From Xestospongia bergquistia (Eukaryota > Porifera > Demospongiae > Haplosclerida > Petrosiidae), in contig OZ014413.1 in the NCBI GenBank assembly GCA_963965975.1, positions 11,018,601 through 11,082,600 of the forward strand: DNA of 64,000 nt, given 5' to 3'. Positions 2,659 through 44,778 of this stretch are shown piece after piece (positions within the stretch are counted from its first letter, which is position 1; each line of letters opens with the position of its first letter). The notes under the pieces were generated by a model that was not told the DNA's origin, searched no databases, and saw only the letters and a program-made list of their open reading frames with translations. The position numbers and the translations under genes were made by a program.

Positions 2659-5600
2659 ATGGGTAATATAATACCTTGGCAAAGAGAACAAGATCAACTT
2701 AGAGAGTTGCCGGCGCCACTAACAAGAGATCACTCTGTATTTACTGTATCTCATCTTGGTAAGCCCCTTTATATAAATGGTGTTTTACTTTACTCGGGAC
2801 TGTTTGGTTTTGTAGAGCCCCGTCATCTCATTGACATTATTAATGTTTTAGAAAGACATCATTTTCCAAGCACAAAATGGTATAAACTAGGTTTTCATCT
2901 TCGTCTACGGAAGAATACACTGGATATTATTGGAGAAGGAAAACATAAAGATGATCCTGGTAGATGTCTTCTAGAATGTCTGGATCAATGGTTGAAAAGA
3001 GTTGATGGTGTAGATGAGCCAACTTGGGATCTGTTGATCAATGCTCTCAAAGATATTGGAGAGGTTGTTACATCTGAGAACATAAAGAGAACAAGTAAGT
3101 GAAGATATCATGTTACTGTGTACAAACCTAGTTTATGATACAGGAGAGGAAATGACATTACCTACTGTTCAGCAGTTTTTACCTTTTCAAGAAATTGGTT
3201 CAGGTAATTTTATTTATCATGTCATTAGTTTTATATTTTATAATTATTAGCAACTATTGCTGATATTCTTCAGAATCTTTTAGCTGCATTAGAACAAGCT
3301 AGGATTTATCCAATGAAAATGGCTCAGATGTTTTTCAGTTATAAATGTATCAGTGAAACAACACTTGATGAGGTAGAGATATTAGAAAACTCATTGGATG
3401 CTAAAAAGAGAACTCTCCTATCTGCTATCTCTGGTGTGGTGTCCTTAGATCACAAGCTACTTAAAGTGTTAGCTACAGTATTGTCTAAATTTGAGGAGAC
3501 GAGGGCTCTTTCTCACAAAATATTTAATGAATATAGTAAGATTCATTGCTATGTAATGTAAAATATTATATATTATTGCTTGCAGTTAAAATTTTCCCAG
3601 AAGATCTTAACTTTCCAGTAGCCATCCCAGAAGTACTTCTCTATAACAGTAGTCTGATGAGTCGTGAAGGTCATGCTAGTGACATTTTACGCTATCATTA
3701 TGGTGACCTCTCTCTATCTCTATATAATACCATTTATATCTCACAGCTACTTTGTGGAGAGAAAGTAATCACATCAACAGAGTTCTTAACTATAGAGTCT
3801 CCTGAATTGTCTCAGTCAGAGAGAGTTACTGTCATTTTAAGAGCAATTCGTAATGCTGTTCATACCAGCTGTCATAACCTGGAGGTATTTGCTAGTATAC
3901 TACAAAAAGTTCCTGAGAATTTTCAATTAGCCACTGTTATTCTGAAAGATTGCCGTAAGTACTACAAGTTATTAAACAAGGAAAAAGAGGACCCAATTTA
4001 GAAATAAATAACTTGTGTCATTAACAATGTGGGTTTTATTTACTGGGGGTGGGGGTGGGGGGGGAAGCTTTCCCCCAAACTCAGTAACTTCCCCCAAAAA
4101 AATTTACAGTAATTTAGTAGCATGAAATTAATAAAAAACAAGATTGAGAAGCAGGATGTGAGAAGAAACATTAGAGCATGCGATGAGAATATGTATTGAA
4201 GGATCTGAACGTTTAACAGATGAAACCCTGGAAGAATTATTGAAAATTACAAAAAAGTCAAGAAAAGAAAAATAGCACTGTAATTAATAATTATTATTTA
4301 TTCACTTTAGTTATTTGCAACATATTATTCAATAAAGCTAAAAGTGCATTGGAAGTCAACTTCCCCCCCCCCCCCAAAAAAAAATTCTAGATAGAACACT
4401 GACAATGTATACTTAATATAATCAATTCTGCTATTGTGGCATGTGATAGCACTTGCTACCCTCAACTTGCATTACTAAAGACTAAAAGTCACACATGCAT
4501 ATTTAATTATTAAAATTTGATAATAGTTGGGCAAACTTTCTCTCATTTCATAGACTCCTATTATTATCATATTCATTAGTAATTATTTTTATTATTTTGT
4601 TATTTTATGTAGAGAAAGCTTATGATCATATTCCATATATTCCTCAAAGCATGAGTGCACAGTTTGGTGAAATCAGAGCTGAATTTGAAGTGACCTTTAG
4701 TAATATTTGCGAAGCAATCAAGACAGCATCAGATCCACCTGTACAATTTGAGGATCTAAGACAGTTTCTCCGAAAAGCATACCCTCACCTCAGGGATCAT
4801 TTGGATCATGCAAGGTCTACTGACGACATACTAGATCTCATTAAAGAGAAATCTACATTGATTGATCTTAGCTTTTTGTCAGCCATTGCAAAGAAGTTTG
4901 ATGTCAAAGTAGCTATACAGCAAATTGAAGCATACCAATGTTTTCTTATGGAACGTTGCCAGAGTACATCTGACTTTTTAGACCAAATATTGAAAGTGGC
5001 CAGACTACCATGTCTTCTTCAATGTGAGACTGCTACATTTGTCTTGAACTGGGAACCACAAACCTGTACATTGACCGATATTCAATACATTCTTTCAAAA
5101 TCTTTAGGAAGAAATGTTCAATTGCAAATTCATTATGTAACAATTGGAAACTCCATCATTATCACCTGTTACTTCCCACTTCACTTAGCCACTTTCCTAA
5201 TTGCCAAAGCTCAGGAAACTCTTGAAGTGGTAAAGAAAAGTGGATTAATTAAACTTATTATCGGTCACTGTGTTATTTTTGATAAACACAAAATAGATCA
5301 GGTAAGAACTGTTTTGTTCTATTAACATTAACTGTTGTACATGTAGGAAGTGAAGTCTTTAGAGATGACTTTAGAAGAAAAACAAAGAGAATCAGAAAAA
5401 CTGAGAAGTCAACTTGAAATACAATTCAGAATAACTAAAAAAATGACACAGGAAAATGAAAATTTGAAGTCTAGACTTAAAATTAGTAAAGGTAATTAAT
5501 CTGATTATTTTATGATACTATACACATGATTCTGTTCCATCATTATAGGAGAAAAAGTCAAGACAAAATCTACTGAAAAGACATATGACTTGGAACATGA

Positions 5601-7799
5601 TGTCAGAGGAATGGAAGGTAGGCAGCACTCACAGCTAATATCATGATTACTTATTAATTAATTCATGAAATATTATAGATTTGAGGAAAGTAAAAATAAA
5701 AATGAAAAAAATATGTTGTTAGAACTTAGTCAGTTAATGTCTTCACAGAAAGACACCTACAATTCTTATATAGTGCTATTATATGTAATAGATATGTACA
5801 CATTGTCTAATGAAAGTAATCTGTTAATTTGGTATATTCTTATCACATTATATAGTAACTACCTTAATAACATATATACTTTTGTCTTAAGGGTAGAGTC
5901 TAAGGGTTATGAATATTATTTTGAGTAACTGAGTGACATGACAAGAAATGAATACTGAGATAGCAAATTAATATGTCCTAGATACTACTAAACTAGTGAT
6001 CAATCAAATTTGTTTTAGTTAATCAATTAATTTATTTTACACATAGCTATAGCCTAATAGTCAGTACAATATATAAAATATTTCTCTACTGTATGTATTT
6101 TCTATAGAGGAACAACAATCATTAATAACATCTCTTACTTTACAATTAAGAGAGAAAGAGGAAAGAAATGTTCATTTAACAGAGAACATAAAAGGTATAT
6201 TAACAACATGTATAGCTCTTTATTTTATCTATTGTAGATCTGAGGTCTAGGATATTAGAGGTGAGAGATCTCCTTAAAACTACTCATCCACTTCTAAGTC
6301 AAAAACTTGAGGAACCACTTGATAGCAAACAAGAAGGTAAGGACACCTGTACATTCTTTATCACTTCATATTTCAGACACAGAAGCATATGAGTTGGTTG
6401 ACAAGATGAAAACACTAGAGGACCTCACATCTACTGTCCAAGAAAGAGAAGGTATTATATAACTACTTAAAATGTACAACATGTTATATTGTGTATTGTG
6501 TAGCTACTGACAGACAACAGGAGATTACTAAATTACAGGAAATGATTAGTTCACTAACTCTTCAATTGACAGAGAAAGATAAAATCATTACTCAGTTAAC
6601 ATCAAAAGATACGGATGAGGAGGACAGCCAACAAGAATCATCAGATGATGAAGAACTACCAAGTAAGCTGTCATTATAACTTTAGTATTATTTAAAACAT
6701 ATGATTAAACTACAATATATATATATTATGGTACAGTATGTACTGACTTGTCACACACTCTTATAACATATGATAACTCATCAATTTCACAAACAACAAC
6801 TGTATGTGAAATTTATTAAATGAAGACACAAGTCTATTTCATTAGTTGCTTTCATCACCACACCTCTTGTCAATATTGAGTAAGAATGAGTAATGAAAAT
6901 AAAATTTAAAGCTTACAATGTATTATGTTAAAATATCTTTACTGACGTCATTCAGACATTTTAGTACCTTGTGTGTCTTTCTCATAGTAGATAGTGGCAT
7001 CCTCATCCTGGCTAATATCATCTAATGCAGTAAATTATTAGTATAACACTCAGTAAATTTAAGTTTGCTTTGTAGAATCTGCTCATCTCCATACGTTGTT
7101 GTTATAGTAATCTAACACTAGTAAAGGCATTGTCTTCTTCATTAGACCTTGACAATTGTAATTGATCATGTTAGAGTGTGTGTATAGCTATTGTTGTGCA
7201 TGTAAAATATTATATAGTAACTATGTTTTATTATAGGAGACACTGGAAGTGTTAAGTGGACTAGTGATAGTGTTATACTTACTTCATCTACTGTGGCAGA
7301 ATGTAAAGAAGTGATACATCAATTAAAGAGACAAAAACACACAACATGGTGGATCGAACTCTATGCGTTATCTCCTCAAAGTTTACTAACAGTATTAACT
7401 GATATTAATGAATGTCAAGTGAGGGGACTTTATATAGAGAACACAAATTTTGATAGTATCAGTGTCAGTCAACTATTACAAGTAGTAACTTATAACATAA
7501 CAATGGAGTACCTATTTCTTCACTCCTCACCTCTCCTACCAGATACTTACCACTTACTTATAACAGCTCTAACTGGTAATAAAATAATCACGAGATTAGA
7601 GTTGCGTAATGACAATAACATTACTGATAAAGATATACCTCATCTCTCTCATCTCATCATTCACAATAAAACATTAGAAGTACTAGATCTCACTAACTGT
7701 CCTAATATTACCGAATTTGGTGAGCAACAATTACAAAATGTTGTTGTTAAAAATAATAGTTTGAGTGTTTTGTACATTAATGGTAATAGACTCCGTTAA
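2659..7799 (+). CDS. Death / CARD-like / coiled-coil / LRR protein (divergent paralogue)
   Basis: Twelve exons join in phase: 2659-3094, 3144-3203, 3251-3535, 3586-3954, 4613-5301, 5347-5491, 5549-5617, 6108-6194, 6238-6336, 6377-6451, 6504-6662, 7237-7799, giving 1011 aa. Residues about 60-140 form a Death domain (WYKLGFHLRLRKNTLDII, then CLECLDQWL-like, then TWDLLINAL). Two helical CARD-like segments follow in exons 3 and 4. Exon 5 encodes a two-part module of about 230 aa ending in a GNSIIITCYFP core. Small exons encode a coiled coil, and the last exon encodes leucine-rich repeats with NLR-type spacing. No NACHT or kinase motif is seen. It is paralogous to the two minus-strand genes at 30-36 kb and 39-45 kb, but those lack the exon 4 domain. 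A role in innate sensing or cell-death signalling is inferred only from the domains. The N-terminus starts MGN, which could allow myristoylation. Confidence 0.75.
4029..4380. mobile_element. Possible transposon relic in intron 4
   Basis: The 658-bp intron is unusually long for this gene. It contains a G-run tract (about 4043-4063), a C-run (about 4364-4378), and between them a short frame (4177-4275, +) reading MRICIEGSERLTDETLEELL and ending at TAG. That peptide resembles the last residues of hAT/ZMYM-type transposases, which often end with an xRIxIEGP...W..K.RR pattern. The match is short and weak, and no terminal repeats or target duplication were identified. Confidence 0.3.
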
Positions 7800-10875: not shown

Positions 10876-12778
10876 CTAGTCAAATCCATCAGGTTCTTCA
10901 TTGTAAAGAACAAGGGGTGTACAAACTCTCTCTATCTCTTTCTTACGATGTTCAAACACTTCTATCTTAGCATTCCAGTTTTCATCAAGCCAATTAATAA
11001 TCTCTGTACATTTTCTCAAAGCTTTCTTTCGAGCTTCTTCATCGTTTCTTAGTTTGCCTTCTTCTATGGCACTCTTCATAGATATAGCATAGTTCTCTAA
11101 GTCATTCATAGCAGTAACACGTTCTTTCTCCTTTAAATCGTCTTCTTTGTACTTTTTAGCATCACAAATCATTTGATCTAATTCCTCTGCAGTGAGTCTG
11201 ACATTGTCATTAGTAATAGTTGTTTTGCTCTCTTTGCCAGTACTTCTTTCAACAGCATGCACATTGAGAATACTATTCCTATCGATATCTATAGTCACTG
11301 TTATTTGAGGTACACCTTCAGGAGCTGGTGGAATATCTGTTAATTCTAAACTGCCCAATGGATTGTTGTCTCTTGTCATGAGGTTCTCTCCTTCATATAC
11401 AGTAATGGTCATTGATGTCTGGTTATCATAAGTAGTGGATATAACTTGTGATACCTTTTTTGGTATTGTAGAGTTACGTGTAATAAGAGGAATCATCACA
11501 CCATGTTTTGAACTAATTCCGAGAGAAAGAGGAGCAACATCAAGAAGTAAGAGATCTTGGACTTCTTCACTTTTATCACCACTCAAAATAGCAGCCTGGA
11601 CAGCTGCTCCATAGGCAACAATCTGGATTGATGGATTTATTGAGTTCTTTACCATTAAAAAAATCTTGTAAGAGTTTTTGGATTTTGGGGATACGAGTGG
11701 AACCTCCTACCAGTACAATATCATGTATTTGACCTTTGTCAAATTTGGCATCTCTAAGAGCTTTCTTAACATATTCTAGGCAATGTTGAAAAAGATCAGC
11801 ACAGAGTTCTTCAAAACGAGCTCTAGTGATGGTAGTATAGAAATCAATTCCCTCAAAGAGAGAATCAATTTCAATAGAAGCCTGAGCACTTGAAGAGAGA
11901 GTTCTCTTGGCATGTTCACAAGCTGTTCGGAGTCGTTGTATTGACTTTGTATTTCCTCGAATGTCCTTTTTGTATTTGAATTCAAATTCATATACAAAGT
12001 AATTCATTAGACGATTGTTGAAGTCCTCACCACCAAGATGTGTACCTCCATTAGTGGACCAAACTTCAAATATATCATCTTCTATTGTCATTACAGTAAT
12101 GTTGAGGTTTGTTCCACCAAGATCAAAGACGAGAGTGTTGTGTTCTTTCATAAGTGTCTTGTTCAGAAACCCAAATGCAATAGCTCCTGCAGTTGGTTCA
12201 GAGATAATTCGGAGAATAGCTAGCCCCGAGATTGTTCCAGCATCTATGATTGCTTCAATTTGTGCATTGTTAAAGTGTGAAGGAACAGTGATAACTGCAT
12301 TAACAATGGGTATACCAAGATATGCTTCAGCTGATTCTTTCATTCTAGCAAGTATCATTGCTAATATTTCAACTGGATCAAAAATTTTGCGTTCACCTCT
12401 AAAGCTAACTTTGATCTTTAGTCGATTGTTTATATTGAAAATCTGAAAAGGAAAGTGTTTCAGGTCCAATTGGACAGCTGGATCATTGAATTGTTGCCCA
12501 ATAAACTGTTTCATACCATATATGGTATTGTACGGGTTTGTACCAATTCGGCTCTTGGCAGCATCACCAATAAGTCGTTCTGAATCAGTGAATGCGACAT
12601 AACTAGCAGTTGTATTGTTACCATGATCATTAGGAATGATCTCCACTTTACCATGACGGAAAATAGCTACACAGGAATTAGTGGTTCCTAGATCAATACC
12701 AATTGCATGAAAGGGCTTGGCCATATTTCTTGTAGGCCAGCCCCACCCACTAACAGGAGGGGCTACTAATGTAATCAA
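10876..12778 (-). pseudogene. Frameshifted HSP70-family copy
   Basis: Read on the minus strand, the 5' frame (12778 to about 11620) begins like HSP70, with signature 1 as [15 protein letters not shown]. The 3' frame (to 10876) continues the substrate-binding region. Compared with the intact neighbour at 12948-14927, five bases are missing near 11621, where the intact gene reads AACAGCTTCATCTGG and this copy reads AACAATCTGG. This breaks the frame at ...NKSINPD. Signature 2 is degraded ([11 protein letters not shown] instead of [11 protein letters not shown]), and the C-terminus ends EEPDGFD, with no GGMP tail or EEVD. No heat-shock element is seen in the 169 bp upstream. Both halves are otherwise open, so the break may be recent. 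A very short intron or a sequencing error is possible but less likely. Confidence 0.8.
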
Positions 12779-12947
12779 TAAGATATTTTTGGTAAATTTT
12801 TATTTTTATAAATAATCCAAAATTTATCGACATAATTTAAGAGTCTACTACAAAAGACCGATAAATAAAATTAAATGTTAACAATGTATACAATATATTA
12901 TAACAACTACAATGTAGCATAAATCAGTCTTGATTGATTGTCTAGTA

Positions 12948-14927
12948 TTAATCAACTTCTTCAATAGTTGGACCAGCTGAACTAGAAGAATCTCCTCCAC
13001 TAGTAGATCCACCTGGAAATCCACCAGCACCTGGAAATCCTCCAGGCATACCTCCTCCGGCACCAGGGGGAGCACCACCAGCTTGATAGAGTTTAGTGAC
13101 AATAGGCATACAGACTTTCTCCAGTTCTTTCTGTTGATGTTCAAACTCTTCTTTCTCGGCAGTTTGATTCTTGTCTAACCAGTCAATGGCCTCCTTGCAT
13201 TTACCAATAACTGTTTGACGATCTTCTTCACTCACTTTGTCCTTTACTTTATCATCTTCCATTGTACTCTTCATAGTAAAGGCATAACTCTCCAGACCAT
13301 TCTTAGCAGAAATACGTTCTCTCTGTTTATCATCTTCAGCTTTGTATTGTTCAGCTTCATTGACCATACGTTCAATTTCTTCAGCTGAGAGACGTCCCTT
13401 GTCGTTAGTGATAGTAATTTTGTTTTCTTTGCCAGTACTTTTGTCAACAGCAGACACGTTAAGAATACCATTTCTATCGATGTCAAAAGTGACTTCAATT
13501 TGAGGAATTCCCCTTGGAGCAGGTGGGATACCAGACAATTCAAACTTGCCCAAAATATTGTTGTCCCTTGTCATGGCTCGTTCACCCTCATAGACTTGAA
13601 TCAATACACTAGTCTGGTTATCTGAGTATGTAGTAAAAGTTTGAGTCTCTTTCTTGGGAATGGTGGAGTTTCGCTTGATGAGAGCAGTCATGACACCACC
13701 AGCTGTCTCAATACCAAGAGAAAGAGGAGCAACATCAAGAAGTAAGAGATCTTGGACTTCTTCACTTTTATCACCACTCAAAATGGCAGCCTGGACAGCT
13801 GCTCCATAGGCAACAGCTTCATCTGGATTGATGGATTTGTTGAGTTCTTTACCGTTGAAGAAATCTTGTAAGAGTTTTTGGATCTTTGGGATACGAGTGG
13901 AACCTCCTACAAGTACAATATCATGTATTTGACCTTTGTCAAACTTGGCATCTCTGAGAGCTTTCTCAACTGGTTCCAGTGTGCTTCGGAAAAGATCAGC
14001 ACAGAGTTCCTCAAAACGAGCTCTAGTGATGGTAGTGTAGAAATCAATTCCTTCAAAGAGAGAATCAATTTCAATAGAAGCCTGAGCACTTGAAGATAGA
14101 GTTCTCTTGGCACGTTCACAAGCCGTTCGAAGTCGTCGGACAGATCTGGCATTTCCACTGATGTCCTTCTTGTTCTTACGTTTGAACTCCTGGATAAAGT
14201 GGTTCACCATACGATTATCAAAGTCCTCACCACCAAGATGGGTGTCACCAGAGGTAGATTTAACTTCAAAGATTCCATCTTCAATTGTTAGCACAGACAC
14301 ATCAAAGGTACCACCTCCTAAATCAAAAATTAGTACATTTCGTTCAGTTCCAACTTTTTTGTCTAAACCGTAGGCAATGGCTGCTGCTGTGGGTTCATTG
14401 ATGATACGTAGAACATTGATTGCAGCAATGGTTCCAGCATCCTTGGTTGCTTGACGTTGGGAGTCATTGAAGTACGCAGGTACTGTGACAACAGCATCGT
14501 TGATAGTTTTTCCCAAATAAGCTTCAGCTGTTTCTTTCATTTTAGTCAGGACCATTGATGAAATCTCTTCAGGATAGAAAGTTTTTGTGTCTCCTTTGTG
14601 TTCTACTTGTATTTTTGGTCGACCTTCGCTTTCAATTACTGTAAAAGGCCAGTGTTTGCGATCTGCTTGAACTGTCGAGTCGTTAAATCGTCGACCTATC
14701 AAACGCTTAGCATCGAAGACAGAGTTATGTGGGTTCATGGCGACTTGGTTTTTAGCAGCATCACCAATAAGTCGTTCTGTGTCAGTGAACGCGACATAAC
14801 TAGGAGTTGTTCGGTTACCCTGATCATTAGCAATGATCTCCACTTTGCCATGTTGGAAAACTCCGACGCAGGAGTAAGTTGTTCCGAGATCAATACCGAT
14901 AGCTGGACCTGTAGCTGGTTTAGACAT
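12948..14927 (-). CDS. HSP70: Cytosolic heat-shock protein 70
   Basis: An intronless 659-aa chaperone, the usual length for cytosolic HSP70/HSC70. All three family signatures are present: [15 protein letters not shown] near the N-terminus, [12 protein letters not shown] near residue 200, and [14 protein letters not shown] near residue 340. The C-terminus has a [13 protein letters not shown] tail and ends EEVD, the motif that binds TPR co-chaperones and marks the cytosolic or nuclear form. It folds and holds client proteins using ATP, with DNAJ and nucleotide-exchange partners. Absence of introns is typical of stress-inducible HSP70. Heat-shock elements and a CCAAT box lie 130-210 bp upstream. 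The start codon is ATG at 14927, followed by [12 protein letters not shown]. Confidence 0.97.
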
Positions 14928-15054
14928 GGTGACGTATCGTGCAGAAAGCTCCTTTACTGCTTCAGAAATTCAGTGATTCTTTGTGAATTCTGTTGAATGA
15001 AAGGCGACTACGTCTATCAACTGATATAGTAGGAGTCTTCCACGTTCTCTACTA

Positions 15055-18563: not shown

Positions 18564-19172
18564 CTACGCACAGCACCCACCTCCCTTAGGCTTCTTCCCA
18601 CTCAAGTCAACAGTAAAGTCAGTCTTTTTAGAAATAGATAAATGTCCTAAAACACTTATTCTCTTGATGGCTGCTTCAAAGGCTTGCTCTACATTAAGTG
18701 CTTGTTTAGCACTGGTCTCATAGTATGGCATATTGCCATTCTCAGTACACCATCTTCTTGCTTCCTCGGGACTTACTTTACGATCACTAACATCAATTTT
18801 ATTACCTAAGACAACAAAGGGAAAATTCTCTGGATCTTTTACATCTGCATAGTAAAGAAATTCTTTCTTCCACATGCTTAAATTTTGAAAACTTTGTACA
18901 TCGTCTACAGCATAAGTGAGCAGACAGCAATCACTACCACGATAAAATGGTGTCCGCAAACTCTTAAATCTCTCTTGACCAGCAGTGTCCCAAATTTGAA
19001 GTGTGTAACGATCATTATCAACTTCCATGTCTTTATTTAAGAACTCAACTCCAATAGTATGGAACATACCAGGATCAAATTTGTTGCTCACAAATCGTTG
19101 AATGAGCGAGGACTTGCCTACCCCTCCATCTCCAAGCAGGACAACTTTGAGAAATATTGGCTTGTTTGACAT
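18564..19172 (-). CDS. RAB9: Rab9 small GTPase
   Basis: An intronless coding region of 202 aa. It has the P-loop GDGGVGKSS, switch I HTIGVEFLNKDMEVD, switch II WDTAGQERFKSLRTPFYRG with the catalytic Gln present, G4 GNKID and G5 ETSAK. The signature FYRGSDCCLLTYAVDD and the body (WKKEFLYYADVK) match Rab9, not Rab7. The tail GGGCCA carries two Cys for geranylgeranylation, with an extra Ala. Rab9 works in transport from late endosomes to the trans-Golgi. It lies beside three Rab7-like genes in the same orientation, but is clearly the conserved member. Confidence 0.95.
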   Translation of the reverse strand: MSNKPIFLKVVLLGDGGVGKSSLIQRFVSNKFDPGMFHTIGVEFLNKDMEVDNDRYTLQIWDTAGQERFKSLRTPFYRGSDCCLLTYAVDDVQSFQNLSMWKKEFLYYADVKDPENFPFVVLGNKIDVSDRKVSPEEARRWCTENGNMPYYETSAKQALNVEQAFEAAIKRISVLGHLSISKKTDFTVDLSGKKPKGGGCCA

Positions 19173-25300: not shown

Positions 25301-28300
25301 TAAAAAATTACGTACAAAATTAAAACAAGTACAAAATTTACTTGAAGCAAATGAGAGAACTAGACAAGAACAACAAAGACAATTACAACAACAGGTATGT
25401 TATAAAGTCTTATCAATAACAATATCTATATTATGAGGACACTTGTCCCAAACTAATACTTTAGTGTATTATACAACCTCTATACTGAGGACACTTGTTC
25501 TAGTCCCATACTAATACTTTAGTGTATTATACAACCTCTATACTGAGGACACTTGTTCTAGTCCCATACTAATACTTTAGTGTATTGCACAGCCTCTATA
25601 TTGAGGACACTTGTTCCACTCCCATACTAATACTTAAGTGTATTATACAACCTCTATATTGAGGACACTTGTTCTAGTCCCATACTAATACTTTAGTGTA
25701 TTATACAGCCTCTATATTGAGGACACTTGTTCTAGTCCCTTACTAATACTTTAGTGTATTATACAGCCTCTATATTGAGGACACTTGTTCCACTCCCATA
25801 CTAATACTTTAGTGTATAATACAGCCTCTATATTGAAGACACTTGTTCTAGTACCATACTAATACTTCAGTGTATTATACAACCTCTATACTGAGGACAC
25901 TTGTTCTAGTCCCATACTAATACTTTAGTGTATTATACAACCTCTATATTGAGGAAACTTGGTCCATTAAATAGAGATTTTGTGTCATCTTTATACTCAT
26001 TGTAAATTCTAAACACTAACTCCTCCCTTTCCTCCACACTTCACACACATACACACCACAGATGTCAGTGTCAGAAGTGACTAAAGTTGACAAAACTCGC
26101 TTACAATCACAAATCTCTCAATTAGAAGAAGAGATAAAAAGAAAAGATGAGAAAATTGAGGAAGTGACGCAGGCACTCACTCTACTAGATCAGGAACATG
26201 ACACTTTAAGAGAACAATGTGATATTAAAGATGAAATGATAGTTCAATTAAAGACTGAACTACAACATAAAGTAAGTCTATAAATAGAACATGTAATAAA
26301 TTAATTAAAATTATTAAAGATAATAAAATCCTAATACTTTAAACTTTCAATTTTAATATTTCTAAAATGATTTAACAGGTTAATTGTGTGGTATTGTTTT
26401 AAAGAAAAATAATTGTTAAGTTAATACAATGTCTTTAGTAGTAGTTATAAACTTATTAATATTATGTACTAGTTATTAACTTATTAATATTATATACTAG
26501 TTATTAACTTATTAATATTATATACTGGTTATTAACTTATTAATATTATCTATTTATTCTATTATAGATTACTGAAGGGAGTCAGTTAGAAACTAATGTC
26601 ACACGTTTGAAATCAATTGAAACTGATGTTCAAAATCAAGTTACTGCTAAAGATAAAGAAATTATTAGTTTACGACAGCAACTATTAAGAGTTGAGGATG
26701 ACAGAGAGAAGATAGGATGTGATCAACGTGAACTAGAGCATCAAGTTAGTCAATTGAAACAGGATTTAGTTACCATGACAACTGAGAACCAAGCTATCCA
26801 TGGAGAACTTCGTAAAGTTGTTCAAGAGAGAGACCAATTAGCAAAGAACATTGAGGGTTATACCCAACGTCTGGTCAACTTGGAAGAACAGTTAACTATT
26901 AAGGTAGGGACTGTTGTATTAGTGAAATCACTCAGCATTAAAAACAGTTTGAAATAACCTTTATATAATGGACACTTTAGAACTAGATAATGTCCTTAAT
27001 ATATAGAGATGTCCTCAATACAGTACAGAGGACGGTGGAGTGTTAATATCATTAATATCATTGTTAATTCAGTGTCCATTATAAAATGTTCTGATGATAG
27101 CAATAATACATCCATTTCTTTGTCAATAGGATCAAGAGAGGGAAGGATTGTTAGAGTCATATCGTGTACTCACAAAGGAGGCAGAGAGGTTAGACTGTAC
27201 TATACAACAAACTAAAGAACAACAAAGTTCATTTGAACTTGAAATGACTACATTACAACAAGAGAGAGATCATCTACAACAATTATGTCAACAATATACT
27301 AGTGAGATAGACCAGGTACTCCCATTATTATAATATAATATATTATATAATGTATTATAGCATATTACTACATTACAATCTTATGAACTACAATTATCAA
27401 ATTTGACTCATTCACTCTCAAAAATGGAACAAACTGTACGACAGGAACAAGAAGAGAAGGTAACTATGGACACACTCATCTGTATTTATCCATTCATCCA
27501 TCTATCCATCCATTCATAATCTATTCATTAACATGTATATTCCTATATTACTTCATTACATTACATAATAGTCATAAACTCCTTAATATTGTATGTGTTA
27601 TGTAATAATATATTTATTTATTTATATCTCTTTATTGTAGAAAGCATTACTGGGTGATTTGACAGCTGTGAGAGAACTGTGTCTTCAATTAGAACGTACT
27701 AAAGAGTCCCTTACACGTCAACTATCATCATTGTCTGTTACACAAGAACAGAGACAACAAGAACTAGTTGATATCATAGCTGAGAGAGATCTACTTAAAC
27801 AACAAGTAAGAGAAGAGATAACAACTTTAACACAGGATATGATTTCTCAGCTAGTAAGTCAATGACATCCTCTCTCTCTCTCCATTTTAGTACACAGATG
27901 AACAGAGACGAGTAGATAGTTTAGAAAACTTGTTATCTCAAGGAAGAAAGAAGGTCTCCATTATAACAACAATATTATATTATAATACTTGGTATATAAT
28001 GATATAGGAATTTCAAGCTCAAGTATCTGGTCAAGAGAGAGAGACAGAGATACAACATTTAAAACAACAGTTAACTAGACTAGAAAATGATCAGTAATAA
28101 TATGATTGTATTATAAATGATATGAAGACTGTTTAGTATGTTACAGAGAGAACAGATCAAGAAGTTACAAGGTGAAGTTACTGTAAAAAATGAGAGAATA
28201 CAATTACTTATAGCTGAACAAACAGCAGAGAAATTACAAAAGTATGTTATCGTGAAATCTTTGATATAACAAAATTAATTGTTATATTAGACAAGATGTA

Positions 28301-30271: not shown

Positions 30272-33200
30272 TTAATGATAACGGAGATAATTATCATTAA
30301 CATACAAACTCTTCAAACTATTATTTTTAACAACAACATTTTGTAATTGTTGTTTACCAAATTCAGTAATTTTAGGACAGAGAGTGAGATCTAGTTCTTG
30401 TAATGTGTTATTGTTAATGATGAGATGAGAGAGATGAGGTATATCATTATTAGTAATGTTAGTGTCATCATACAAGTATAATCTCTTGATTATTTTATTA
30501 CCAGTTAGAGCTCTTGTTAGTAAGTGGTAAGTATTTGGTAAGAGAGGTGAGGAGTAAAGAGATAGGTACTCCATTGTTTTGTTATAAGTTAGTACTTGTG
30601 ATAGTTGACTGACACAGTTAATATCAAAATGAGTGTTATATATAACAAGTCTCCTCACTTGACATTCATTAATATCAGTTAATACTGTTAGTAAACTTTG
30701 AGGAGATAATGACTTGAGTTCAATATACCATGTTGTGTGTTGTCGTCTCTTTAATTGATGTATCACTTCTTTACATTCTTCCACAGTTGATGAAGTAAGT
30801 GTAACTCTATCATTAGTCCACTTAACACTTCCAGTGTCTCCTATAATAAAACATAGTTACTATATAATATTTTATACACACAACAATAGCTATAGACACA
30901 CTCTAACATGCTCAACTACGATTGTCAAGGCCTAACGAAGAAGACGACGCCATTACTAGTGTTAGGTTACTATAACAACGATGTATGGAGATGAACGGAT
31001 TCTACAAAACGGACTTAAATTTACTGAGTGTTATACTAATAATTTACTGTATTAGATGAGGATAAAGATGTCACTATCTAGTACTGAGAGTCTGAGAGAA
31101 ACACACAAGGTACTGAACTGTCAGATAGATGTCAGTGAAAATGACTCAGTCATATCACTAGTCAAGATGATTCACAATTAAGAAGCAACACTCAATCATG
31201 AATCATCATGATGTCTGGTAACAGAGTTTATGTTTGACTTGTCTTTTTATATCAATTGATTGATATTTCTATTTTACTTTACAAATGTCATAATGTAATA
31301 AAACATTAAATTTAGTGTATATTCTTGTCATTTAACATTGAAGCTGGAACATGTGTGTAATAATAGTGACATCATTTCTCTGTGTCAGTTTAATGGACAC
31401 TAGTTAACTTATAGATGTCATTACAATATTTTCATATCAACTTGAGATTACTATTCTTCTGGTAAATTATTAAATTATATTAACCCAATCATACAATGAA
31501 TTTGATGTCCTAGTTTCCACATTATACTCAAGCTCTGAAGGTATCTTGAAGTAAATAATAACTTAATTGGACTATATTAATTGGTACATGTGTAGGTACT
31601 ATTATGACAGAGATCATCATAGAGATCAACTATAGATTACCAGGAAATATTTGAAAATTTTTTATTTATTACGCTGAGCCATCAATGATGAATTCATTAC
31701 TCAATATTGACAAGAGGTGTGGTGATGAAAGTAACTAATGTAATAGACTTGTGTCTTCATGTAATAAATTTCACATACAGTTGTTGTTTGTGAAATTGAT
31801 GAGTTATCATATGTTATAAGAGTGTGCTACAAGCCAGTACATACTGTACTATATATATATTGTAGTTTAATGACATGTTTTAAATAATACTAAAGTTATA
31901 ATGACAGCTTACTTGTTAGCTCTTCATCATCTAATGATTTCTGTTGGTTGTCCTCCTCATCTGTATCTTTTGATGTTAACTGAGTGATGGTTTTATCTTT
32001 CTCTGTCAATTGAAGAGTTAGTGAACTAATCATTTCCTGTAATTTTGTAATCTCCTGTTGTCTGTCAGTAGCTACACAATACACAATATAACATGTTGTA
32101 CATTTTGAGTAGTTATATAATACCTTCTCTTTCTTGGACAGTAGATGTGAGGTCCTCTAGTGTTTTCATCTTGTCAACCAGTTCATATAATTCTATGTCT
32201 GAAATATGAAGTGATAAATAATGTAGAGGTGTCCTTACCTTCTTGTTTGCTATCAAGTGGTTCCTCAAGTTTTTGACTTAGAAGTGTATGACTAGTTTTA
32301 AGGAGATCTCTCACCTCTAATATCTTAGACCTCAGTTCTACAATAGATAAAATAAAGAGCTATACATGTTGTTAATATACCTTTTATGTTCTCTGTTAAA
32401 TGAACATTTCTTTCCTCTTTCTCTCTTAATTGTAAAGTAAGAGATGTTATTATCTCTTGTAATGATTGTAGCTCCTCTATAGAAGATACACATAGCAGGA
32501 AAATATTTTATATAGGTAAAAAAATTTGATTAGTTAACTATTCTTTAGTGTAACTATGTCATTAATTGTGTCAGAATATCAAAAAATAGACCTGTATCTA
32601 GGAAAGTTGCAAACCAGAAATTCCATATAAAGTGAATGGCATTCTTCACATTCCATCAACACCTAGCCTCGTACCCAGGCTTTTGTGATAGAAAAGAAAG
32701 CCTGGTAACTACTGTTTGTGCAAGCGTTTAATTTCCACAGATTTCTTGGAAAATAGTATACTTTAGGAATCCTCCGTTAACTATGACATCAAAATTCCTT
32801 TTACTACAATGTTGGATTATTTGTGATGGTTACTTGTGTTACAGTTATTCACGTACCCCAATTGTTTACATCCCAACAGTACTGAACAAGTTTGTTGCTC
32901 TTTTGACTTCCACTAAATCTCTGCACAACCAACAAACTCAACTAGTCATACTTAAACTTATGTAGTGAATAAAATGTCATCAATATAAACCCAGCCCATC
33001 AATTCATCATTTAATTTAAAATATGTCATTATGATGTCACATTTTCAATAATTACGCACATGCGCAAGCAGTAGTTACCAGGCTTTCTTTTCTATTGCAA
33101 AAGCCTGGGTATGAGGCTAATTAACACCATATCCAAGTTTGGTTGATGTCATTGTCATAATTAAAATTCCACTAAACAGGAGTTATTCTCAACATGAACA

Positions 33201-35708
33201 GAATATAGTAAGGTTTTGTACAATCATAATTATGTGTATATTATAATAATACTATTATGTTTATATTTTTACCTTTCCTTGGAAATTTTATTTTCTTTTG
33301 CAATATCTCAATCTCTTCTTGTTTCTCTACTAATATTTTATCAGTAACTATAGAACATAACCATATACGGTATGTACTGTACTACTAATAGTATTATAGC
33401 TCACCTTCTTTATGTCTGGTTAACTTCTCTATCTCTAAGGTCTTTGCCTTATTCATTCTATCTAATAGTTTCATCTTCTCTATTTACATTAGGTACATAG
33501 TTATATCTCAATTAATGTGCATGTACCTGATAAAGTGTCAGTTGATGATTGATCTTGTGGTCCTTCTCTCTCCATACTGGTATAAACTAATGTTTAATGA
33601 TAAAGTATATAGCACATGTATCATATCATATAGTGAAGTCAATGTATCAGTAGGATTATTAACCTTCAAGAGAAGATCTTAACTCCATTATGACCTCATC
33701 TTTCTCAGCAGTTGTCTTTCTCTGTGAAATAACCTTCTCTTCAAGAGCTCTCACCTCTTCTACAAAACCTCTCACCTCCTATATATATAAAGAGAGAATA
33801 CTGTCTAGTACTACTCATCTCTTACCTTATCTCTGTTATGTTCATCCCATATTGTATGGAAGGCTATTGTTAGTCTCATTAATCCCATCTTTTTAAGTAG
33901 GTCAAGATTCTTCTTAGCTTTCACAAATAGGATATCAATTAAATTTTGTGGAGCATAGCAGGTCACAATGATAGAGTTGCCCTTTCTTAGTTCTTTCACT
34001 AAAACTTTCTTAGCCACATCTCCAAATGCCTTCCAAAGAAGATCTTGTATTTCACTAAGTGTGTGCTCATCTGTATTCCATCCCAAAACAAACTCAATGG
34101 TCTCACGTTTGAGAAGAGAGGACGGACCTGTCATGAAGCTCAAGTTCTCATTTTCACACACACTGAGTTTAACCTCCTCACAGAACTTATCAACTGCTGA
34201 TTTGTAGACTGTGATGTGAGCTTTGGCATCATCAATGTTATAATGATTGATAATAGCCTCTAAACAAGCAACATTGATTAGTGTACACTTCTCTTCTACT
34301 ATTTGCATAACATCATCAAATGACTTAGCAATGTCAAGTTGAGGTTTTAGTTCACGGAAACATCTTCTAACATATGTTTTGAGTTCTTCCAGTGGAGATG
34401 GTACTTCCTGCAGTGAAAAAGTAATTTGTGATGAAGAAGCCATAATAGCAGATTTAATAAGAGGTACAACTGTATGAATAAACTTCCCAAATGTTACTCT
34501 CATATTATCAAAATTATATTGAAAAGTAGGTGGAAGATACAGCTCTGTTATATCACCTATACATGTAGTGAAATAATAAATGAATTAATAATTGATATAA
34601 AATACTAACATTGAGTAGTTGTTAATGAACATGTAACATTTGGAGAAGGAGGAGCAGTGGTAGTAAGTGTAGTATCTATTAGTTAAAGATATCATATTAA
34701 TATTTAATTTATTCTGTTATTCAATAATTTCAAGTTCTTATGTTGTATTCTTGTGTTCCCAAAGCGTTAAATAAATGGATGCATTTGTATGACTTATGTG
34801 GTTATAGGTTGTGATAAAACATACTAAGCATGACCGAACCCACTTCCAAACACACACTAAGGCATACTAAGGCACTCAATAATTAACCCTTGTTGTTATC
34901 AGTATAATAAAATCAATTATATAATCATCATACCAGCTATCTTTGTAAAAAGAAGTAATTTGTTATACCAGTAATACATACCTGATATAATTAATTGTGG
35001 AGGTATTTGAGGAAAGTTTTCATCTGTCAAGAAAGACAAGTAAAGATTTTACTTTTCATTTTAAATGCAAAGAGCTTACCATATTCTTTCAGTATCTCTT
35101 GTCCTATTTGTACTGTATCTTCTGATTGTAATAAGATTGTTGAAAATGTTCGTAACTGGTTAGGATTATCAGATACTGTACCAGATAGTGCTTTCAATGG
35201 AGAAATATTTGATCTCTGAACTTCATCAAATGTCTTGTCAGAGATGACTCCCTCTGTATATAACATCTCCACAGGAAGGGTTACTTGTGAGAGTCTCTCA
35301 GAGAAGTTTTGCAATATTTGATTGGGAACCTTTTTTTGAACTGATCATAAAAGAAAACACATTCCATAATTAAATTATAACTTGTGGTTACTTACTTTCT
35401 TGTAAGGCTACTCTGTATCTTTCAGCAACAGTAATCTCACCAATGGCCTCTTTCTTTAGTGTTTCAATAATCTCTCTTCTTGTAGCATTAGGTTTACTAC
35501 TCAGCCATAATTCAAACATCTTTAATGATTTGAAATCACTATCTTCATTTAGTGATCTGATATCATTTAACTTTGTGATATCTAACTTGAGAAGAACACC
35601 AAGTTTGTGCCAGTTAGTACCAACTCTGACATGTTCGTATAACTCGTGAACAGTTGGTTTTCCATTCAAAAACTGATCGAAATAGTTCGACTGAATCGGC
35701 GAAGCCAT
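30272..35708 (-). CDS. Death / CARD-like / coiled-coil / LRR protein, copy 1
   Basis: Fourteen exons join in phase on the minus strand: 35396-35708, 35080-35340, 34982-35023, 34610-34675, 33826-34556, 33664-33778, 33527-33586, 33405-33479, 33273-33347, 32381-32476, 32239-32337, 32124-32198, 31913-32071, 30272-30840, giving 911 aa. In order: Death domain (residues about 20-95: WHKLGVLLKLDITKLNDI, FELWLS, REIIETLKKEAI), a CARD-like domain (EGVISDKTFDEV, then LRTFSTILLQSEDTV), a Thr/Pro-rich linker, a two-part module of about 230 aa (CFRELKPQLDIAK, then TIEFVLGW and GNSIIVTCYAP), coiled coil, and LRRs (NNTLQELDLTLCPKITEFG). It resembles an NLR without NACHT. An intron holds a 456-bp inverted-repeat element. 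The immune role is inferred. Confidence 0.82.
32664..33119. mobile_element. MITE-like element with about 50-bp terminal inverted repeats (copy 1)
   Basis: The ends begin TAGCCTCGTACCCAGGCTTT and close with the complementary AAAGCCTGGGTATGAGGCTA. The inverted repeat continues through GAAAGCCTGGTAACTACTG. The flanking TA on both sides could be a TA target duplication (Tc1/mariner type). There is no transposase, so it is non-autonomous. It sits in the intron between the exons ending at 33273 and starting at 32476. Confidence 0.82.
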
Positions 35709-39176: not shown

Positions 39177-42100
39177 TTAACGGAGATAAATATTATTAAC
39201 ACGCAAATACTTCAAACTATTATTATTAACAACAACATTTTGTAATTGTTGTTTACCAAATTTAGTAATATTAGGACATTCAACGAGATATAGTACTTGT
39301 AATGTGTTATTGTTAATGATGAGATGAGAGAGATGAGGTATATCATTATCACTAATGGTAGTGTCATTAAACAAGTATAATCTCTTGATTATTTTATTAC
39401 CAGCTACAGCTGTTGTTAGTAAGTGGTAAGTATTTGGTAAGAGAGGTGAGGAGTAAAGATATAGTTCCTCCATTGTTTTGTTATAAGTTACTACTTGTGA
39501 TAGTTGACTGACACAGTTAATATCAAAATGAGTGTTCTCTATATAAAGTCCCCTCACTTGACATTCATTAATATCAGTTAATACTGTTAGAAAACTTTGA
39601 GGAGATAACGCATAGAGTTCAATCCTCCATGTTGTATGTTGTCGTCTCTTTAATTGATGTATCACTTCTTTACATTCCGCCACAGTAGATGAAGTAAGTA
39701 TAACTCTATCACTGTACCACTCAACACTTCCAGTGTCTCCTATAATAAAACATAGTTACTATATAATATTTTATACACACAACAATAGCTATACACACAC
39801 TCTAACATGCTCAACTACGATTGTCAAGGCCTAACGAAGAAGACGACGCCATTACTAGTGTTAGGTTACTATAACAACGATGTACGGAGATGAACGGATT
39901 CTACAAAACGGACTTAAATTTACTGAGTGTTATACTAATAATTTACTATATTAGATGATCTGAGTCAGAATGGGGACGTCACTATCTACTGTTGAGACAG
40001 ATACACAAGGTACTGAACTGTGAGATAGATATCAGTGAGGATAACTCAGTCATATCACTAGTCAAGATTATTCACAAGATGCAATACTCAATAATGAATC
40101 ATGATGATGTCTGGTAACAGAGTTTTTGTTTGACTTGTCTTTTTATATCAATTGATTGATATTTCTATTTTACTTTACAAAATGTCAAAATGTAATAAAA
40201 CATTAAATTTAGTGTCACGATATAATAGTATAATGTATACTCTTGTCATTTATAATATACTTCAATATTTTTGAAACAATAATTATTTGACAATATCCTA
40301 TTAACATTGAAGATTGAACATGTGTGTAATAATAGTGACATCATTTCTCTATGTCAACTAATGAACACCAGTTAACTCAACAGATGTCATTACAATATTT
40401 TCATATCAAATCAAGATTACTATTCTTCTGGTAAATTATTAAATTTTTAAAATTATATTAACCCAATCATATAGTGTAGTATTGAATTTGATGTCCTAGT
40501 TTCCACATTATACTCAAGCTCTGAAGGTATCTTGAAGTAAACAATAACTCTATATTAATTGGTACATGTGTAGGTACTATTATGACAGAGATCATCATAG
40601 AGATCCACTATAGATTACTGAGAAATATTTGATAGATGGAATTTTATTGTTACTGAGCCATCAATGATGAATTCATTACTTGATCATACTCAATGTTGAC
40701 AACAGGTGTGGTGATGAAAGTAACTAATGAAATAGACTTGTGTCTTCATGTAATAAATTTCACATACAGTTGTTGTATGTGAAATTGATGAGTTATCATA
40801 TGTTATAAGAGTGTGCTACAAGTCAGTACATACTGTACTATATATATATTGTAGTTTAATGACATGTTTTAAATAATACTAAAGTTATAATGACAGCTTA
40901 CTTGTTAGCTCTTCATCATCTAATGATTTCTGTTGGTTGTCCTCCTCATCTGTATCTTTTGATGTTAACTGAGTGATGGTTTTATCTTTCTCTATCAATT
41001 GAAGAGTTAGTGAACTAATCATTTCCTGTAATTTTGTAATCTCCTGTTGTCTGTCAGTAGCTACACAATACACAATATAACATGTTGTACATTTTGAGTA
41101 GTTATATAATACCTTCTCTTTCTTGGACAGTAGATGTGAGGTCCTCTAGTGTTTTCATCTTGTCAACCAATTCATATGATTCTATGTCTGAAATATGAAG
41201 TGATAAATAATGTACAGGTGTCCTTACCTTCTTGTTTGCTATCAAGTGGTTCCTCAAGTTTTTGACTTAGAAGTGGATGACTAGTTTTAAGGAGATCTCT
41301 CACCTCTAATATCTTAGACCTCAGATCTACAATAGATAAAATAAAGAGCTATACATGTTGTTAATATACCTTTTATGTTCTCTGTTAAATGAACATTTCT
41401 TTCCTCTTTCTCTCTTAATTGTAAAGTAAGAGATGTTATTATCTCTTGTAATGATTGTAGCTCCTCTATAGAAGATACACATAGCAGGGAAATATTTTAT
41501 ATAGGTAAACAAATTTGATTAGTTAACTATTCTTTAGTGTAACTATGCCATTAATTGTGTCATAATATCAGAAAATAGACCTGTATCTAGGAAAGTTGCA
41601 AACCAGAAATTCCATATAAAGTGAATGGCATTCTTCACATTCCATCAACACCTAGCCTCGTACCCAGGCTTTTGCTATAGAAAAGAAAGCCTGGTAACTA
41701 CTGTTTGCCCATGCTTTTAATTTCCACAGATTTCTTGGAAAATAGTATACTTTAGGAATCCTCCGTTAACTATGACGTCAAAATTCCTTTTACTGCAATG
41801 TTGGATTATTTGTGATGGCTACTTGTGGTAAAGTTATTCACATACCCCAATTGTTTCCATCCCAACAGTACTGAACAAGTTTGTTGCTTTTTTGACTTTC
41901 ACTAAATCTCTGCACAACCAACAAACTCAACTATCCATACTTAAACTCATGTAGTGAATAAAATGTCATCAATATAAACCCAGCCCATCAATTCATCATT
42001 TAATTTAAAATATCTCATTATGATGTCACATTTTCAATAATTACGCGCATGTGCAAGCAGTAGTTACCAGGCTTTCTTTTCTATTGCAAAAGCCTGGGTA

Positions 42101-44778
42101 TGAGGCTAATTAACACCATATCCAAGTTTGGTTGATGTCATTGTCATAATTAAAATTCCACTAAACAGGAGTTATTCTCAACATGAACAGAATATAGTAA
42201 GGTTTTGTACAATCATAATTATGTGTATATTATAATAATACTATTATGTTTATATTTTTACCTTTCCTTGGAAATTTTACTTTCTTTTGCAATATCTCAA
42301 TCTCTTCTTGTTTCTCTACTAATACTTTATCAGTAACTATAGAAAATAACAATATATGTACTGTACTACTAATGGTATTATAGCTCACCTTCTTTATGTC
42401 TGGTTAACTTCTCTATCTCTAAGGTCTTTGCCTTATTCATTCTATCTAATAGTTTCATCTTCTCTATTTACATTAGGTACATAGTTATATCTCAATTAAT
42501 GTGCATGTACCTGATAAAGTGTCAGTTGATGATTGATCTTGTGGCCCTTCTCTCTCCATACTGGTATAAACTAATGTTTAATGATAAAGTATATAGCACA
42601 TGTATCATATCATATAGTGAAGTCAATGTATCAATAGGATTATTAACCTTCAAGAGAGGATGTTAACTCCATTATGACCTCATCTTTCTCAGCAGTTATC
42701 TTTCTCTGTGATATAACCTTTTCTTCAAGAGCTCTCACCTCTTCTACAAGACCTCTCACCTCCTATATATATATAAAGAGAGAATACTGTCTAGTACTAC
42801 TCATCTCTTACCTTATCTCTGTTATGTTCATCCCATATTGTATGGAAGGCTATTGTTAGTCTCATTAATCCCATCTTTTTAAGTAGGTCAAGATTCTTTT
42901 TAGCTTTCACAAATAGGATATCAATTAAATTTTGTGGAGCATAGCAGGTCACAATGATAGAGTTGCCCTTTCTTAGTTCTTTGACTAAAACTTTCTTAGC
43001 CACATCTCCAAATGCCTTCCAAAGAAGATCTTGTATTTCACTAAGTGTGTGCTCATCTGTATTCCATCCCAAAACAAACTCAATGGTCTCACGTTTGAGA
43101 AGAGAGGATGGACCTGTCATGAAGCTCAAGTTCTCATTTTCACACACACTGAGTTTAACCTCCTCACAGAACTTATCAACTGCTGATTTGTAGACTGTGA
43201 TGTGAACTTTGGCATCATCAATGTTATAATGATTGATAATAGCCTCTAAACAAGCAACATTGATTAGTGTACATTTCTCTTCTACTATTTGCATGACATC
43301 ATCAAATGACTTAGCAATGTCAAGTTGAGGTTTTAGTTCACGGAAACATCTTCTAACATATGTTTTGAGTTCTTCTAGTGGAGATGGTACTTCCTGCAGT
43401 GAAGAAGTAATTTGTGATGAAGAAGCCATAATAGCAGATTTAATAAGAGGTACAACTGTATGAATAAACTTCCCAAATGTTACTCTCATATTATCAAAAT
43501 TATATTGAAAAGTAGGTGGAAGATATAGCTCTGTTATATCACCTATACATGTAGTAAAATAATAAATAAATTAATAATTGATATAAAATACTAACATTGA
43601 GTAGTTGTTAATGAACATGTAACATTTGAAGGAGGAGGAGGAGAAAGAGCAGTGGTAGTAAGTGAAGTACCTATTAGTTAAAGATATAAAATGATTATGA
43701 TGACAATAATATAATGTAAGACAAGGCAATATCATAGTGAATGTTAATTTTCAAATAAAATCAATGATTCAATAGTTTCAGGTTCTTCTGATGCATTTTT
43801 AATTTCTGTGTTCCTGTGTCACTAAAAAGTAAATAAAATGCATCCACTTGTATCGCTGCATGTGATTATGGGTTGTGATAAAACTCATATCTAACCACAA
43901 CTGAATCCACCTTCCCACGTATACACACATACACACACACAGGTGTACTAAGGTAATTGACAATAAACACTTGTTGTTATCAATATAATAAGATAAATCA
44001 TCATACCAGCTATCTTTGTAAAGAGAAGTAATTTGTTATACCAGTAATACATACCTGACATGATTAACTGTGGAGGTATATGAGGAAAGTTTTCATCTGT
44101 CAAGAAAGACAAGTAAAGATTTTACTTTTCATTTTAAATGCAAAGAGCTTACCATATTCTTTCAGTATCTCTTGTCCTATTTGTACTGTATCTTCTGATT
44201 GTAATAAGATTGTTGAAAATGTTCGTAACTGGTTAGGATTATCAGATACTGTATTAGACAGTGCTCTCAATGGAGAAATATTTGATCTCTGAACTTCATC
44301 AAATGTTTCGTCAGAGATGACTCCCTCTGTATATAACGTCTCCACAGGAAGGGTTACTTGTGAGAGTCTCTCAGAGAAGTTTTGCAATATTTGATTGGGA
44401 ACCTCTTTTTGTACTGATCATGAAAGAAAATATATTTCATTAAATGATAACTTGTGGTTACTTACTTTCTTGTAAAGCTACTCTGTATCTTTCAGCAACA
44501 GTAATCTCACCAATAGCGTCTTTCTTTAGTGTTTCAATAATCTCTCTTCTTGTAGCATTAGGTTTACTGCTCAGCCACAATTCAAACATCTTTAATGATT
44601 TGAAATCACTATCTTCATTTAGTGATCTGATATCGTTTAACTTTTTGATGTCTAACTTGAGAAGTACACCAAGTTTGTGCCAGTTAGTACCAACTCTGAC
44701 ATGTTCGTATAACTCGTGAACAGTTGGTTTTCCATTCAAAAACTGATCGAAATAGTTCGACTGAATCGACGAAGCCAT
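39177..44778 (-). CDS. Death / CARD-like / coiled-coil / LRR protein, copy 2
   Basis: It has the same 14-exon layout as copy 1. Checked exons: 44466-44778, 44153-44413, 44055-44096, 43596-43670, 42812-43542 and the last, 39177-39739. The product is about 912 aa. The Death domain, CARD-like domain and two-part module are almost identical to copy 1. The linker exon is 9 bp longer (extra GGA/GAG-type repeats). The LRR exon has more amino-acid differences than the rest (for example VECPNITKFG against LTLCPKITEFG). It starts 115 bp from the ALG5 start codon, head-to-head. Confidence 0.82.
41653..42108. mobile_element. MITE-like element with about 50-bp terminal inverted repeats (copy 2)
   Basis: It is at the same intron position and has the same length (456 bp) as the element at 32664-33119, so it inserted before the segmental duplication. 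The ends are TAGCCTCGTACCCAGGCTTT and its complement. Confidence 0.82.

Follow-up and report, generated by a model that had tools for sequence, protein, structure and literature searches.

What kind of protein is encoded by three genes whose products begin with a Death-type domain and end in leucine-rich repeats (LRRs), when no NACHT ATPase is found between the two ends? The question is raised by genes A, B and C in a stretch of 64,000 nucleotides (nt) from the sponge Xestospongia bergquistia (assembly GCA_963965975.1, contig OZ014413.1, forward-strand positions 11,018,601 to 11,082,600; C3:11018601-11082600 in our numbering), hereafter the window, and searches were extended to the genome, i.e., one assembly of 146 Mb in 21 contigs. 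We consider it probable, at about 0.7, that A, B and C encode ATPase-free, NLR-like recognition proteins built on Death and TRADD-N domains, and that they belong to a germline repertoire under extreme diversifying selection with a shared, recombining tail. The observations that carry this reading are the exon order, the domains at the level of sequence and predicted fold, a common tail behind different fronts, a constant central module, and diversifying codons on the concave face of the LRR.

Gene models and domains of A, B and C

Each gene was rebuilt as a single open frame with GT-AG introns and consistent phases: gene A (2659-7799, + strand) has 12 exons and 1011 amino acids (aa), gene B (35708-30272, - strand) 14 exons and 907 aa, and gene C (44778-39177, - strand) 14 exons and 908 aa. 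The initial annotation had proposed that the three genes join in phase, which holds, its lengths of about 911 and 912 aa for B and C being off by 4 aa. The common domain order that it described is also kept, namely a Death-type exon, helical exons, a module of ~230 aa in one exon, a coiled coil and a single LRR exon; gene A departs from it, however, in having an additional exon of ~122 aa (3586-3954), fewer coil exons and a distant front (31% module identity to B and C). Exons 2-4 of gene A match no Pfam family in the scan, and counterparts of its exons 3 and 4 are present in a paralogue, L073 (loci of the genome search carry the letter L). The family was counted as three genes; these are related, but the count is an understatement, as the genome holds at least 267 distinct module loci (with 150 of 508 candidates scored in one search and 150 of 415 in another) and, from the matches listed, at least 148 LRR-exon loci.

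Most of the domains named in the initial annotation are borne out. PF00531 (Death) is matched over the cut-off in B and C; gene A is not among the matches of that scan, and its Death exon taken by itself gives a match below the cut-off (Table 1). In an alignment of the Death exons of B, C, A, L041 and L073, all five rows match PF00531 at E<=10, and a PDB profile search with these exons puts FADD death domains on top (best E 0.013). The coil region shows a heptad signal above shuffles (z 2.8-4.0). The LRR exons give sub-threshold matches in Pfam, and a PDB search with a five-row LRR profile matches ribonuclease inhibitor (E 3.4e-11) and the LRRs of NLRP proteins. AlphaFold predicts an alpha/beta horseshoe for the LRR of gene B (pLDDT 92.2), with strands at residues 11-15, 37-42, 61-67, 91-95, 119-123, 148-151 and 177-180. 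The CARD-like label of the second domain is unsupported: none of five rows of exon 2 matches CARD, and the PDB returns designed proteins only (best E 0.019).

No NACHT, TIR or kinase is listed in the Pfam scans (A and B whole; C residues 1-470 and LRR exon), in agreement with the initial annotation, and no SH3 is found in the scans of A and B, where a coiled coil stands instead. A Death domain and an LRR at opposite ends would also be expected of true NLRs whose NACHT was missed or has diverged. NACHT is readily found in this genome, with 95 matches; yet a same-strand match within 9 kb is absent at all 148 LRR loci and present at just 5 of the 267 modules. Moreover, the module model is RRM-like, and we regard a missed NACHT as extremely improbable. 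The five modules all lie in one region (G000 C2:8.9-9.1 Mb), where NACHT, Death and module matches are interleaved. A structural match of the module to NACHT had been named in advance as the result that would speak against an NLR-like sensor, and the predicted module fold is not an ATPase fold. On sequence and modelled fold, A, B and C have the C-terminal LRR and the Death-fold N-terminus of NLRs (the Death match of A being below cut-off) but not the central NACHT ATPase, and would be classed as NLR-like sensors, not as NLRs. The proposal that a module plus coiled coil takes the place of the ATPase keeps its outline, Death to LRR with no NACHT detected, except that the module is not an unrecognised one.

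The module (~230-243 aa, one exon) fits the Death-like plus TRADD-N unit of 357 Amphimedon proteins of the NCOA6-clade TRADD-N expansion, as given in the sections on those proteins in Kaur et al. (2021, eLife; PMC8195603). As described there, most of the Amphimedon architectures combine one to three Death-like domains and TRADD-N with a variable C-terminus, ankyrin or SH3 plus LRRs being the commonest forms of the latter. The window genes have the same succession of Death-like domain(s), TRADD-N and variable C-terminus, given the TRADD-N reading of the module, and because Amphimedon proteins with Death-like, TRADD-N and LRR parts are published, the architecture is already known in kind.

For the three window copies, AlphaFold predicts helices at residues 54-127 and a beta-alpha-beta-beta-alpha-beta arrangement at 150-230 (DSSP: E150-157 H166-183 E185-191 E195-202 H203-215 H217-222 E225-230). 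In a module alignment of 29 rows (L009 and L010 being B and C, for which the window copies were used; L025 and L033 excluded for stop codons), S194 is invariant in 29/29 and lies in the beta2-beta3 turn of the predicted fold. In the part of PMC8195603 that describes TRADD-N, the conserved Ser of the domain is placed in the beta2-beta3 turn and follows a tiny residue. For the C-terminal 99 aa, taken from 21 of the 29 rows, PF13820 (NCOA6_TRADD-N) is the commonest Pfam match: it is hit by 4/21 rows, all below cut-off (best E 0.0087), the top one of which also matches PF20694 TRADD-like_N (10 of 21 rows scanned); the same segment of gene B has only an unrelated match. On these results the module is likely to consist of a helical part and a TRADD-N domain.

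Several observations weigh against this assignment. The confidence of the module model is moderate (pLDDT 67.7 overall, 74-90 across the predicted TRADD-N fold), S194 is preceded by Asn (G-N-S), not by the tiny residue described for TRADD-N, and all TRADD-N scores in Pfam are below cut-off. With whole modules, PF13820 is matched by 3/29 rows (best E 0.042), as many as AdoHcyase_NAD (3) and fewer than Polyoma_coat2 (5 rows) or GARS_A (4), three families whose matches are taken as chance. In a Foldseek search of the module against the PDB, no match reaches E<=0.001 and no TRADD-N is among the 50 rows listed; the sub-threshold matches are mixed, with many alpha/beta-plait domains (aIF2alpha, ACT-like, S6, EF1B, CcmK). 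Module profiles likewise find nothing convincing in the PDB. Searching the six-frame translation of the genome with PF13820 gave no match, and is uninformative because the controls gave none either.

Do the front and the LRR belong to one transcript? An in-frame ATG between the last stop and the start of the LRR exon is absent in 36/37 LRR exons, the first Met inside the exon is at index 85-89 in 34/37, and a TATAG or TGTAG acceptor context precedes 34/37. Around the 148 LRR loci listed, a module is found within 5 kb on the same strand upstream at 91 and downstream at 26, and on the opposite strand at none; within 9 kb the numbers are 100 and 50 on the same strand and 1 + 1 on the opposite strand. 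The downstream side is where the next gene of a tandem would lie. The Death, helical, module, coil and LRR exons also recur in the same order in L041 and in L073, the closest relative of A in the front. The lack of an in-frame ATG together with a same-strand module upstream favours a single transcript for the Death, module, coil and LRR exons as predicted. Counting the other way, no module is listed in the 5 kb upstream of 57 of the 148 listed LRR loci; a long Death exon lies within this distance upstream of 13 of the 148.

Diversifying selection on the concave LRR face

Selection was analysed in 37 LRR exons (A, B, C and L039-L072), which are the 37 long LRR rows of a DNA search that scored 40 of 224 candidates (one 62-base fragment was excluded); all 37 are open. 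Thirty concave sites were set by the xxLxLxx motif, after the pattern had been seen in five sequences. Mean entropy is 1.76 bits at these 30 sites versus 0.38 at the 156 others, and dN/dS is 4.47 at concave sites (codon bootstrap 2.8-7.3) versus 1.00 elsewhere (NG86, all pairs). Of the 25 sites above 1.5 bits, 23 are in or within two residues of a predicted beta-strand, and variable sites often alternate (38/40/42, 63/65/67, 91/93/95, 119/121/123). Over all sites, strands with their flanks have higher entropy than helices (P = 0.004). A second, deeply different LRR class on C4, ~40% identical to the LRR of gene C and represented here by 20 copies, repeats the pattern, with a concave dN/dS of 3.96 (2.5-7.1) versus 0.80 elsewhere, the concave sites again being set by the motif after its 20 sequences had been read. 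Since these 20 exons were selected among the C4 rows that had no listed stops, their openness is no evidence.

The module behaves differently, with a pooled dN/dS of 0.26 (29 rows; 36 of 406 pairs, pS <0.3) and of 0.08 between B and C. The concave LRR codons are thus under diversifying selection and the module under purifying selection, although it weighs against this reading that the NG86 pairs are not independent, dN/dS having been obtained from counts over pairs. Stops in 6/150 LRR rows and 9/150 module rows listed might point to a drifting pseudogene array with chance exon neighbours. However, all 37 LRR exons are open, splice phases are consistent in the three genes, and the selection results speak against such an array because module dN/dS is 0.26; we regard it as very improbable. 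Concave hypervariability with a constant remainder seems to be new: no report of it in sponges was found in titles and abstract openings of the literature, with few subscription papers covered, and the main text of PMC8195603 lacks the terms 'concave', 'hypervariab' and 'positive selection'.

How fast do these codons change? We compared 630 pairs from 36 of the 37 copies by simple nucleotide counts, the pairs not being independent. In 12 pairs whose adjacent intron differs by less than 2%, nucleotide divergence at the 30 motif sites is already 0.26, and in the most distant pairs it is just 0.34. The concave-to-intron ratio falls from 21 in the closest bin through 10 in the following one to 4.0 over all 630 pairs together, as expected if concave sites are near saturation. 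Single pairs give ratios of 9.3 (B/C), 10.2 (L039/L058) and 14.4 (L053/L071), and in L053/L061 the aligned intron is identical while concave divergence is 30%. Between L039 and L058, 1.3% of backbone nucleotides differ, versus 25.6% of those at the 26 sites of highest variability, where many codons are changed by 2-3 nt. At these 26 sites divergence is 0.34-0.43 throughout, the list having been chosen after the entropies (constant positions dropped; 8, 11, 13 and 184 added), which gives higher values. None of these ratios is a clean rate, since the intron may be homogenised by gene conversion.

Such figures could point to a dedicated process, either site-directed mutagenesis or gene conversion of very short tracts, that rewrites concave codons in place of ordinary mutation plus selection. 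The high divergence beside near-identical introns (ratio 21), the identical intron of L053/L061 and the multiple-base codon changes of L039/L058 all fit it, and so does linkage: concave sites are near linkage equilibrium (mean z 0.39 within strands and 0.04 between strands), whereas backbone sites are linked (2.69; near-duplicates L051 and L054 excluded). In the C4 class, however, backbone linkage is absent too (L089 excluded here and in the silent-site test), the intron is possibly a poor clock, and in some sets of very young duplicates (L049/L051/L054 and L083/L089) the concave residues are almost unchanged.

Silent sites bear on the same point. Fourfold third bases vary by 2.5% at concave codons versus 2.8% elsewhere in the first class, and by 3.0% versus 1.4% in the C4 class. 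The excess is mainly at amino-acid-changing positions, so that selection fits and a blind hypermutator fits badly; blind hypermutation is disfavoured in the first class, where silent fourfold sites are not elevated. Adenine-specific mutagenesis, as by a diversity-generating retroelement, was rejected: at sites 63 and 119 (NNA), positions 1-2 vary but the third-base A mostly persists, and third bases are conserved whichever base they are. On balance we hold targeted diversification to be quite improbable beside ordinary mutation under strong selection.

Mosaic structure and a proposed germline repertoire

It is also evident that the parts of these genes differ in age. The front of A has no DNA match to that of B or C at E 1e-5, whereas over 6070-6897, introns included, A is 93.6-93.8% identical to B and C in DNA, and in the LRR part 85-86%. 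The same tail is found at 89-92% in L039 and L040 behind a different front, which is a single long exon of 399 aa with a Death match (E 1e-10) in L039 and a Death match with a 373-aa open frame in L040. By eye, this second front type has a C-terminal stretch with G-C at the place of the TRADD-N Ser/Cys. L041, with a B-type front, resembles A over only 176 nt of the coil block (86%) and in the LRR part (87%), and L073, the front sister of A, is 79-83% identical to A in the front, 87% in the coil and 84% in the LRR. For the module and front, a tree test on 8 rows rejects a clade of A, B and C (p-AU 0.00015). The fronts are thus far older than the tails attached to them. In the tail tree, a grouping of A with L073 is not rejected (P = 0.121), and support for A, B and C together is weak (60/83), so that a tail taken by A from B or C is only one possible direction of transfer. 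The mosaic tail seems to be new, and neither it nor the hypervariable concave face had been noted in the initial annotation.

How might a repertoire of this kind work? The proteins are probably cytoplasmic. The pattern of selection suggests that the LRR horseshoe would bind a putative ligand through its concave face. The coiled coil may multimerise the protein, and by analogy with their family the TRADD-N and Death-type domains could serve as a switch and as the contact to Death-fold partners. The repertoire may have been built by gene duplication and by movement of the coil and LRR tail between fronts, through ectopic recombination or gene conversion, with intense selection favouring novelty at some 26-30 codons. 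Microbes or non-self cells would drive this diversity. Alternatively, the LRR may bind other members of the repertoire or, in allorecognition, the cells of other individuals, the proteins being adaptors or regulators with no microbial ligand. Diversity of the binding face fits this as well as it fits defence, and the sections of PMC8195603 on TRADD-N expansions tie them to sessile, aggregating marine animals; but nothing here separates allorecognition from microbe recognition, and we regard it as unlikely. A bolder scheme, which we consider quite unlikely, is an anticipatory germline LRR repertoire with near-identical backbones, in which a dedicated route (micro-conversion or targeted mutation, coupled to selection) rewrites mainly the ligand-facing codons one codon at a time, in the closest copies at ~10-20x the pace of the neighbouring intron, the coil and LRR cassette having moved between TRADD-N/Death fronts.

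If A, B and C are ATPase-free, NLR-like recognition proteins, a constant signalling front with a hypervariable recognition face would offer a function-level reason for a domain family that is known, as far as we are aware, from its architecture alone. Sponges are an animal phylum without known adaptive immunity, and sponge specificity would become testable, as the codons that should matter are named. An extreme codon rate with unchanged silent sites and shared tails would make a case for studying how germline repertoires diversify.

Table 1. Coordinates of the parts of genes A, B and C within the window.
Feature	Position	Strand	Remark
Gene A exon 1, start and Death-type domain (aa 64-143)	2659..3094	+	sub-threshold PF00531 match (E 0.052); alignable with the Death exons of B and C
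Gene A exons 2-4: linker, helical relative of B/C exon 2, additional exon of ~122 aa	3144..3954	+	
Gene A exon 5, module (helical part and predicted TRADD-N)	4613..5301	+	31% to B; 77% to closest relative, L073 locus
Gene A exons 6-7, first coiled-coil exons, A-type	5347..5617	+	common to L073
Gene A shared tail block 1, coil exons 8-11 and introns	6070..6897	+	DNA 93.6-93.8% identical to B/C; further copies elsewhere
Gene A exon 12, ribonuclease inhibitor-type LRR, hypervariable concave positions, stop codon	7237..7799	+	
Gene B exon 1, start and Death domain	35396..35708	-	PF00531 E 4e-6
Gene B exons 2-4, helical exon (initially CARD-like) and linkers	34610..35340	-	no Pfam/PDB match
Gene B exon 5, module	33826..34556	-	predicted helices 54-127, TRADD-N-like fold 150-230 (AlphaFold)
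Gene B exons 6-13, coiled coil	31913..33778	-	
Gene B exon 14, LRR	30272..30840	-	predicted structure pLDDT 92.2
Gene C exon 1, start and Death domain	44466..44778	-	PF00531 E 3e-5
Gene C exons 2-4, helical exon and linkers	43596..44413	-	
Gene C exon 5, module	42812..43542	-	99% aa identity to B
Gene C exons 6-13, coiled coil	40902..42762	-	
Gene C exon 14, LRR	39177..39739	-	82% aa identity to B LRR, modules 99% identical

Genes B and C lie within a direct duplication of ~8-9 kb (28.0-36.0k and 36.2-45.2k), whose divergence is uneven, from 0 to 24% per 200-column step, and a stretch of ~620 columns around 38.0-38.8k is present in the C copy only. Between its exons 9 and 10, gene B carries an intronic insert of ~456 bases (32664-33119) with inverted termini of 70 nt (87% complementary), which by eye is also in gene C (about 42.1-41.6k) and not in gene A. 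It resembles a miniature inverted-repeat transposable element and could help to date the B/C duplication. Elsewhere in the window, an intact HSP70 gene (12951-14969; PF00012 E 1e-258) stands beside a second, tandem and diverged HSP70 copy that is split over two frames (11579-12799 and 10879-11706), both within 10876-14969 on the - strand. Four Rab/Ras-like small GTPase open reading frames lie at 18564-22132 on the - strand (three were scanned and all match PF00071), in a cluster with internal duplications at 66-97% DNA identity. A tandem repeat array of 58 bp occupies 25384-26079.

Comparison with known systems

Diversity at the concave xxLxLxx positions, as in the LRRs of the window, is a feature of plant NLR LRRs and of the variable lymphocyte receptors (VLRs) of jawless vertebrates. 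Plant NLRs and VLRs have other signalling parts, however, and VLRs are somatically assembled, whereas the window LRRs are complete exons in the assembly.

Brown algal LRR-ROCO proteins, in the account given in the relevant part of PMC11378527, are similar in having positively selected concave LRR sites together with exon shuffling. They differ in that each LRR has its own exon and that a ROC-COR GTPase is present, whereas in the sponge genes a single exon encodes the entire LRR and no GTPase was detected. Sponge NLRs, e.g., those of Dysidea avara (PMC12909245, sections concerned), share a Death-type N-terminus, an LRR C-terminus and a large expansion with the window genes; these NACHT-LRR proteins, with Death or CARD, carry a NACHT that the window genes are without. 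In another sponge, Halichondria panicea, individuals express different receptor sets, according to the part of PMC8242945 on this subject.

The closest likeness in architecture is to the NCOA6-clade TRADD-N proteins of Amphimedon, which also have one to three Death-like domains, TRADD-N and a variable C-terminus in which LRRs are possible, and which are likewise present in hundreds of copies in a sponge (PMC8195603, sections on those proteins). In a variant reported there, an SH3 precedes the LRRs, whereas a long coiled coil does so in the window genes. Concave hypervariability, its dN/dS and a shared recombining tail do not appear in those sections.

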